From NCBI RefSeq assembly GCF_004345645.1, contig NZ_SLWS01000009.1:310001-374000 (forward strand): a stretch of DNA of 64,000 nt. Direction: 5' to 3'. A program made the position numbers and the translations under genes. The notes below the pieces were generated by a model that worked only from the letters and a program-made list of their open reading frames with translations, ran no database searches and was not told the DNA's origin. Positions 28,938 through 30,909 of this stretch are shown here, piece by piece. Position 1 is the first letter of the stretch. Each line of letters begins with the position of its first letter. The stretch comes from Actinocrispum wychmicini (GTDB taxonomy: Bacteria; Actinomycetota; Actinomycetes; Mycobacteriales; Pseudonocardiaceae).

Positions 28938-29322
28938 GGCGGCTCCCGAGGCTGTCGTGTCGATAGTTGCAACCAAATGCCTAGTTTCAATCAACTTCGC
29001 GCAGAGCTCGGTCGGATGGTAGCGGAGGGTACATGGTCTGCACCAGTCAGCTACGCCCTGAGGACCTTGCTGTTGCCGGCAGCCCGCGCGGAGGACAGCT
29101 CGGTCGGGCCCCGCTGCTTGCCGCCCACCGCTCACTGCCCGCCGCCGCCCACTGCCGCCCGCTGCCCGCCGCTGCCGCCCGCCGCCCACTGTCCGCCGCC
29201 GCCCGCCGCTTACTGCCGCCGCCCACTGCCCACTGTCCCCCGCTGCTGCTGCTCACCGGCCGCTGCCCGCTGCCGGATAGGTCGTTTCCATTCGCGAGGC
29301 CTTTCAGCGCCCGCCGGAAAGA
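28938..29322. other. Non-coding region with a GC-rich low-complexity tract
   Basis: No gene is supported here. The part nearest the hexosaminidase (28938-29035) should hold its promoter; the palindrome GTTGCAAC at 28966-28973 is a possible operator. From about 29105 to 29280 the sequence is an irregular tandem of CCGCTGCCCGCC/CCGCCCACTG-like units on the plus strand, open in several frames but without coding character. Confidence 0.5.
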
Positions 29323-29432
29323 CGAATAGTGCTGGGCGCGAAACGTTGTTTGGTCACCTTGGAGTTCGGCTTCCAGCCTCGGGTTCCGGTTCCGGCGCTG
29401 GTTACCCTTCTGTGGTTCCATTCCAGCCAAAG
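29323..29432. repeat. Left 110-bp inverted repeat of the HNH element
   Basis: Inverted copy of 30776-30885 with 5 mismatches in 110. It begins CGAATAGTGCTGGGCGCG and ends CCATTCCAGCCAAAG. Similarity breaks down beyond both ends. Confidence 0.85.
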
Positions 29433-29442
29433 ATCCTCTATT

Positions 29443-29535
29443 GGCCATTAGATTCCCACTCTTTCCCACCCTTTCCCACTAGCTCCCCCTTTCCCATTAG
29501 CCCCCTCTCTCTCACTAGCCCTCTCTCTCGCGCCC
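29443..29535 (+). repeat. Pyrimidine-rich tract upstream of the HNH gene
   Basis: The plus strand is almost only C and T here, with repeated CCCACTAGC / CCCATTAGC / CTCACTAGCC units and CTCTCTCTC runs. It ends 45 nt before the HNH start. No ribosome-binding site is visible in the tract. The composition is unlike the rest of the window. Confidence 0.6.
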
Positions 29536-29579
29536 ATTTTCGAATGGCCACCACTGCCATTCTTCGGTATCATTGAGGC

Positions 29580-30764
29580 ATGGGTGGGGAACTAACTCTC
29601 TTTCGTACACCGCTTCCGCCGGGCGACATTCCCGTTGAGGAGATGTCCGCCTCGGAATGCCTGGACGTCCTGACCGCTGCCGAACGGGTTATCGCTGAGG
29701 CAGAGGCCGCGAAGGTTCGCGCGCTGGCTCGGTTCGCCGTGCTGCGGCCACCGACCCGACGGCACACCGAACTGGCCGATGGCGCACGCGAAGAAGTCGC
29801 CATCGAGATCGGCATCAGCCCACAAGCCGCCGCCACACACATACTGCGAGCACAGCGCCTCGCCACCCGACTACCCGCCACCATGGACGCGCTAGCCGCC
29901 GGCAACATCGACCTCAAACGCGCACTTGCGATGGACGACCTAACCGACGTGCTGTCAGCGAAAGATGCCGGGCGAGTGGAACGACGAGTCCTGGCCTACG
30001 GACGCCGCACCAACCCCAGCCGATTCCGCGACTCCATCCGATATCACATGATCAAAGTCGACCCGGCTTCCGCCGAACGGCGTCGGGTAGCCGCCCGACA
30101 AGACCGCGACGTCACATATATGGCCGGAGAAGACGGCATCGGACACTTCAGCGCCGCCCTCACTGCCGAAGAAGCACTGACCGCCCACCAACAGATCGAC
30201 AAACTCGCCCGAAAGGCCAAGACCCCCAACCGGACCTTGGGCCAATGCCGGGCCGACGTACTGATGGCCCTGATCATGGGTGAGCAACGGGACCGGGTGA
30301 AGGTCCAGGTGAATGTCACCATCCCGGCCACCACCCTGATGGGCCTCACTGAGCAGCCCGGCGTGCTGGCCGGATATGGGCCCATCACGGCCGAGCATGC
30401 CCGGGAATTGGCCCACAACGGCACCTGGCGGCGGATCCTCACCGACCCAGCCGGGCACCTGCTGGAAGCCAGCCCACGCCGATTCCCCTCACCGGCGATG
30501 GCCGAGCACGTCCGGCTACGCGACCAGCACTGCCGCATGCCCGGCTGCACCACCACCGCCCACCGGTCGGAGATCGACCACACCGTTCGTCATTGCGATC
30601 AGGGACTCAGCAGCACAGACAACCTCGCCGCATTGTGCAAATATCACAACCTGCTCCGCGAGCGCAGCGACTGGGACATTTATCAGCCCAGTGAGGGTGT
30701 GTTGGTGTTTACCAGCCCTGAAGGTCGCCGGTACCAGACCACACCTCCAGCGCTCGTCGCGTGA
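29580..30764 (+). CDS. DUF222 / HNH endonuclease domain protein (13E12 repeat family)
   Basis: 394 residues. The N-terminal ~270 residues are the helical DUF222 region (MSASECLDVLTAAERVIAEA, ATHILRAQRLATRLPATM). The C-terminal HNH domain shows RDQHCRMPGCTTTAHRSEID, then DHTVRHCDQG, NLAALCKYHN: the His/Asn metal-site residues and paired Cys that make the beta-beta-alpha metal fold. The family is abundant and repetitive in actinomycete genomes and function is unproven; a nuclease linked to element spread is a common guess. The frame is intact. It is bracketed by 110-bp inverted repeats, which suggests it moves or duplicates as a unit. Confidence 0.88.
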   Translation: MGGELTLFRTPLPPGDIPVEEMSASECLDVLTAAERVIAEAEAAKVRALARFAVLRPPTRRHTELADGAREEVAIEIGISPQAAATHILRAQRLATRLPATMDALAAGNIDLKRALAMDDLTDVLSAKDAGRVERRVLAYGRRTNPSRFRDSIRYHMIKVDPASAERRRVAARQDRDVTYMAGEDGIGHFSAALTAEEALTAHQQIDKLARKAKTPNRTLGQCRADVLMALIMGEQRDRVKVQVNVTIPATTLMGLTEQPGVLAGYGPITAEHARELAHNGTWRRILTDPAGHLLEASPRRFPSPAMAEHVRLRDQHCRMPGCTTTAHRSEIDHTVRHCDQGLSSTDNLAALCKYHNLLRERSDWDIYQPSEGVLVFTSPEGRRYQTTPPALVA

Positions 30765-30775
30765 GGATCATTTTT

Positions 30776-30885
30776 CTTTGGCTGGAATGGAACCACAGAA
30801 GGGTAACCAGCGCCGGAACAGGAACCCGAGACTGGAAGACGCACTCCAAGGTGACCAAACAACGTTTCGCGCCCAGCACCATTCG
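30776..30885. repeat. Right 110-bp inverted repeat of the HNH element
   Basis: Inverted copy of 29323-29432 with 5 mismatches. It begins CTTTGGCTGGAATGG, 11 nt after the HNH stop, and ends GCCCAGCACCATTCG. Confidence 0.85.
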
Positions 30886-30909
30886 TTTTTTCAAAGCCGC
30901 CATCGCCGA

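Follow-up and report, generated by a model that had tools for sequence, protein, structure and literature searches.

In actinomycetes, Mycobacterium tuberculosis included, genes of the DUF222/HNH (13E12) type rank with the more repetitive ones, and to our knowledge they are still without a function. Loci of the 13E12/REP13E12 DUF222/HNH type have been flagged as a repetitive element (PMC10589994), and the REP13E12 loci of M. tuberculosis, which lack a defined biological function, have been described as gene-conversion hotspots (PMC13061034). Where the open-access literature that we searched mentions DUF222/HNH genes or REP13E12, it treats them solely as functionally uncharacterized repeats or as hotspots of gene conversion; earlier accounts may exist. 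The unit described here is of the same family (PF02720 plus HNH) and shares with 13E12/REP13E12 its form as a dispersed, multi-copy, single-gene repeat. It is set apart by the descriptions, as long inverted arms or gene-less derivatives are unreported for REP13E12 in the open-access literature searched.

Several described mobile systems resemble the unit in part. Like classical insertion sequences (ISs) and MITEs, it has one gene between inverted ends, is dispersed, and in a second family of the same genome (family B) occurs as gene-less arm pairs. Unlike classical ISs, it encodes no DDE, serine or tyrosine transposase, its arms are 110–465 nt rather than short, and no target-site duplication was seen. 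RAYT/REP and IS200/IS605-type systems likewise consist of dispersed palindromic modules beside a single nuclease-type gene and have gene-less modules, but rely on a Y1 tyrosine transposase where an HNH/DUF222 protein is found here. An HNH nuclease as the sole gene of a spreading unit is also characteristic of HNH homing endonucleases. Homing endonuclease units occupy one conserved insertion site, usually within a conserved gene, whereas the present copies lie at unrelated intergenic sites and have inverted ends of their own. IscB/OMEGA systems combine RuvC and HNH with an associated guide RNA. The HNH part of the present protein is near the IscB HNH in structure (VIA Z 6.3, rmsd 3.7, 72 residues), and the mobile-element context is shared with IscB/TnpB (OMEGA). 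Pfam recognized no RuvC domain and a scan of the elements found no Rfam family above the gathering score, a result that would still be compatible with a novel RNA.

Architecture of the unit and its protein

The window, i.e. the whole 64-kb stretch of DNA that was analyzed, contains an intergenic element beside metE with the following features:

29318..29433, plus strand: left inverted arm of 110–116 nt (inverted-repeat search, copy comparison)
29434..29579, plus strand: leader, from the left arm to the start codon (alignment of five copies)
29580..30764, plus strand: intact gene for a DUF222/HNH protein of 394 aa (open reading frame; Pfam DUF222, E = 6e-20)
29688..30056, plus strand: N-terminal helical part, aa 37–159, tentatively ParB/KorB-like (AF2 model, Z 5–6)
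30492..30695, plus strand: C-terminal HNH nuclease part, aa 305–372 (PHROGs, fold, conserved residues)
30775..30890, minus strand: right inverted arm (inverted-repeat search, copy comparison)

The whole unit (29318–30890) spans 1.56–1.57 kb. Near-perfect inverted arms around the DUF222/HNH gene had been noted in the preliminary description, and the inverted-repeat search bore this out: the arms are 116 nt long, 95% complementary and 1341 nt apart, the right one starting 10–11 nt after the stop codon. In self-BLAST the pair scored E ~5e-39 and the runner-up inverted pair in the window 1.3e-4, a gap that excludes a chance origin and rules out a chance or low-complexity repeat as the source of the arms. 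The edges first proposed (29323–29432 and 30776–30885) were right to within 1–5 nt, but inverted similarity in sister copies extends further outward, up to 212 nt; the 110 nt are therefore only the core of what is a longer arm in the family. We take the left neighbor to be a glycoside hydrolase-like gene and the right neighbor a metE-like gene, both on the minus strand, judging from their translations. Degenerate short repeats rich in CCGCCG/CACTGC lie just left of the element (window:29101–29280). A structured RNA in the window arm was considered and found unsupported by its fold, which showed no strong structure (z +0.8), and by the Rfam scan.

The protein matches Pfam DUF222 (PF02720) with 72.1 bits against a cut-off of 24.4 (E = 6e-20). 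The HNH match in Pfam is below the cut-off on the full protein (0.014), and a PHROG HNH family is matched at 5.7e-5; the protein thus has the DUF222-then-HNH order of the PF02720 family. Six residues (C318, C323, D333, H334, C353 and H356) are invariant or nearly so. In the AF2 model (pLDDT 86.6), the C-terminal part adopts a predicted HNH fold akin to those of McrA, IscB and Gme HNH, and residues 37–159 resemble ParB/KorB DNA-binding domains (Z 5–6, ~99–103 residues, rmsd 2.8–3.9), a likeness that may merely reflect a common arrangement of helical proteins. Pfam and PHROGs returned DUF222/HNH only and NCBIfam nothing, hence no DDE, serine or tyrosine transposase was found in the unit; a Y1 tyrosine transposase domain was absent in the Pfam and NCBIfam scans, and a RuvC domain in Pfam. 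PADLOC gave no match to a defense system, Foldseek no PDB or viral match at E ≤ 0.001, and plasmid and phage searches distant homologs only.

Two families of copies in one genome

The genome carrying the window (12.0 Mb in 42 contigs, here C followed by the contig number) contains 13 matches to the 110-nt arm. These include five complete arm–gene–arm units, referred to as family A, as well as incomplete copies:

C9:279477–280944: complete unit
C9:339323–340885: complete unit, the window copy
C10:143287–144757: complete unit
C15:113180–114643: complete unit
C17:86441–87909: complete unit
C15:233228: copy cut by a contig end
C14:275635: arm at a contig end, its inside unassembled
C10:92695: decayed copy with gene pieces

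The search for the repeat in its own genome and in relatives, suggested in the preliminary description, thus found many loci and not a single copy with conserved flanks. An ancient single hairpin was ruled out by this recurrence of the arm. Alignment of the five copies showed flanks that are unrelated beyond the arms. The four complete sister genes, found along with fragments, are 90–93% identical to the window gene in amino acids. All family-A arms adjoin a DUF222 gene or its remnants except the contig-end arm on C14, and no gene-less family-A module was found in this genome outside contig ends. The window copy is the longest of the family (1563 nt vs 1464–1471 nt) because its leader contains a CT-rich, repeat-like stretch between the left arm and the start codon that makes it ~90 nt longer than in the sister copies.

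The five family-A genes have diverged considerably at synonymous sites (dS 0.30–1.02), with dN/dS of 0.037–0.072, which indicates that the gene is under purifying selection. A 98-nt arm core differs by only 2.6–4.1% (0.026–0.041) among elements, and the two arms within one element by 2–6%. Arm divergence of ~3% against dS of 0.3–1.0 implies that the arms are kept alike independently of gene age; either constraint or conversion between copies would maintain their identity.

Family B comprises DUF222/HNH proteins only 26–28% identical to the window protein. Its seven complete loci have inverted arms unrelated to those of family A (293–383 nt, 81–98% identical). Each family-B arm contains a long hairpin of its own (z −8.5 for one arm), and in an alignment of 15 arms, 10 of 83 predicted pairs showed two-sided compensatory change. 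Since family-B arms fold and family-A arms do not, the common feature is the inverted layout around DUF222/HNH and not a particular sequence. Searching the genome with a family-B arm gave 33 hits at E below 1e-30; many of them lie at contig ends, where assemblies are expected to break on repeats. Several are arm pairs of the following kinds:

C2:908016–908327 (plus) and 908442–908727 (minus): gene-less, MITE-like arm pair
C24:59714–60138: partial arm pair of the gene-less type
C11:330922–331365: partial arm pair of the gene-less type
C8:98909–101016: two arms with a transposase-like open reading frame between them

The two arms on C2 (908016–908727) face each other 115 nt apart, with no DUF222 gene in 6 kb. 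The open reading frame on C8 (L339:2391–4037; G000 C8:99190–100836) encodes a 548-aa protein like IS1182-type transposases and is probably an IS that inserted into a gene-less family-B element. On C3 of the same genome (L343:1823–7169), two partial inverted family-B arms ~5 kb apart enclose open reading frames resembling a regulator, a radical SAM protein and a thymidylate kinase-like protein.

Relatives, unoccupied sites and other genera

We compared Kibdelosporangium banguiense, K. aridum, K. persicum, K. philippinense and two apparently misnamed records. The latter, NZ_MTQO01 (Actinosynnema sp. ALI-1.44) and JOAA01 (Rhodococcus rhodnii NRRL B-16535), group with Kibdelosporangium, and their names look wrong. 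Multi-copy homologs bracketed by inverted arms of 100–465 nt were found in four related Kibdelosporangium genomes (G001, G002, G003 and G007). Across the other genomes, 13 of 62 homolog loci were bracketed in this way, compared with 1 of 185 mismatched pairs of left and right flanks. All 13 come from the Kibdelosporangium group; other homologs within Kibdelosporangium have no arms, and some look single-copy. A 79-nt core module of the left arm (~29350–29428) is present in five other Kibdelosporangium genomes at 73–80% identity, where the best proteins are mostly 46–58% identical to the window protein. Relative to the gene, this core is reversed in K. banguiense and G007 as compared with the window genome (elements L091, L092, L088 and L089 of G002 and G007). 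In another relative (G005), the family-A module is dispersed without a gene at three loci (~215 nt, 83–87% identical).

The comparison of empty sites, also suggested at the outset, succeeded for family B. The flanks of one element (L126, C18:41728–43799) are nearly adjacent in three relatives (G005, G002 and G007), where the syntenic site contains neither the element nor any arm. At the G005 locus, the left flank extends to position 1318 and the right flank starts again at 1501, leaving ~180 nt without an element; ~470 nt of the left flank is also missing, so the exact junction is undefined. For the window copy, metE of six relatives has neither a DUF222 gene nor an arm alongside, which provides a weaker candidate for an unoccupied site, the left neighbor being non-syntenic. 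No target-site duplication was seen at any edge checked, and the exact ends vary among copies. Near the outer edges, a terminal motif GG(N)CY..AAAA occurred in 16/50 vs 5/982 cases, an enrichment that is only a lead, as the pattern was picked post hoc and the copies are related.

For other genera, a sample of 60 genomes from the same taxonomic family included 38 with DUF222 genes, some with at least 31. In other genera, inverted arms bracketed only 2 of 39 dispersed DUF222/HNH loci, one of them weakly; the idea that long inverted arms are general to all DUF222 repeats was thereby ruled out (37/39 loci without arms). The remaining loci are dispersed units of ~1.3–1.6 kb, and two closely aligned genomes of other genera place the right boundary at the stop codon or a few nucleotides past it. 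One genome (G040) carries a 123-nt palindromic module in at least 40 near-identical copies, located upstream of the DUF222 gene in all seven loci checked; these genes include two groups only ~25% identical in protein. Folding z-scores upstream of the genes in other genera were mixed, so that not all of them may have a hairpin. Directly upstream of the hairpin module in G040 (L164, L166–L168, L318 and L320) are arrays of ~20-nt repeats (GGCTGGTTCCAGCGTGGGTC-like), which differ in length from copy to copy. The dispersed units and the G040 module suggest that what is general may be a conserved module next to the gene, its inverted doubling being the Kibdelosporangium variant.

Proposed mobilization by the DUF222/HNH protein and its alternatives

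Terminal inverted repeats, multiple copies at unrelated sites and an unoccupied site in relatives are features of IS-type elements. At the level of sequence, the copies demonstrate dispersal as a block, conserved ends, gene-less versions and a sister-family unoccupied site. The minimal mobile element proposed in the preliminary description is well supported by arm–gene–arm copies at multiple loci, gene-less derivatives, the unoccupied family-B site and four related genomes. We consider it probable that the unit is an insertion-sequence-like mobile element with DUF222/HNH as its mobilizing nuclease. We infer this role for the protein because neither family carries any other gene, because purifying selection acts on its gene in family A, and because it is predicted to be a DNA nuclease. 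In the proposed mechanism, binding of the arm module by the N-terminal helical part would pair the two inverted ends, at which the HNH domain would make a nick or cut, and a copy would be joined by cut-and-repair to a new, mostly intergenic, site; intact copies could move gene-less arm pairs in trans.

Several points speak against this explanation. No target-site duplication was seen, the exact ends differ among copies, and the HNH activity is a prediction. In our sample the long arms are confined to one genus, so arms appear not to be required for DUF222 dispersal generally. The direction in which the core points, outward or inward, differs between species, and this would be unusual for the end of a transposon. 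Finally, the similar divergence of arms within and between elements would also fit gene conversion.

Among the alternatives, the arms might be recognized by an unrelated transposase encoded at some other locus, with DUF222/HNH as a passenger or accessory nuclease. We regard this as unlikely: gene-less arm pairs do occur and no known transposase fold was recognized in the protein, but DUF222/HNH is the sole gene in each of two families whose arms are unrelated, the gene is under strong purifying selection, and every family-A arm of this genome away from contig ends adjoins a DUF222 gene or its remnants. The dispersal of DUF222/HNH genes in other genera without such arms also argues against it.

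The homing unit raised in the preliminary description is disfavored, as the elements sit at unrelated sites and do not disrupt a conserved gene of the host. In its fuller form, a selfish nuclease gene would cut existing arm modules and be inserted by repair from an occupied copy, spreading by recombination. In favor of it, the HNH fold is common among homing endonucleases, modules without a gene could serve as targets, module divergence is uniform over copies, and a near-identical G040 module lies upstream of two dissimilar gene families, as if genes and modules recombined independently. Against this stand the unoccupied L126 site, which lacks any arm in relatives, the position of the insertions outside conserved genes, and the window genome itself, without a gene-less family-A module away from contig ends; spread of this kind seems rather improbable. 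It is very improbable that the units are not self-mobile, the genes being kept for a cell function (e.g. defense or regulation), the arms serving as regulatory or binding sites and ordinary duplication and conversion producing the copies: purifying selection, armless homologs in the same genus and the gene-conversion hotspots at M. tuberculosis REP13E12 loci (PMC13061034) would agree with this, but copy flanks are unrelated up to the arm edges, gene-less and decayed copies exist, copy number varies widely among genomes and PADLOC found no match.

Returning to an element mobilized by its own DUF222/HNH protein, we tentatively propose, with somewhat less than even confidence, that it represents a new class among bacterial mobile elements, with a DUF222-bearing HNH nuclease as the transposase and long inverted end modules as its substrate. 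The inverted-arm form in Kibdelosporangium would be a variant of a broader system, of DUF222/HNH proteins that work on conserved palindromic modules next to their genes, and would explain how 13E12-type repeats spread across actinomycetes. The conserved inverted ends provide a concrete substrate for tests, and the gene-less copies point to a two-component test, with ends in cis and protein in trans. The element offers a testable reason for the repetitiveness of DUF222/HNH genes in actinomycetes and, should its HNH protein prove to be the transposase, would add a mobilization enzyme beyond the known transposase classes.
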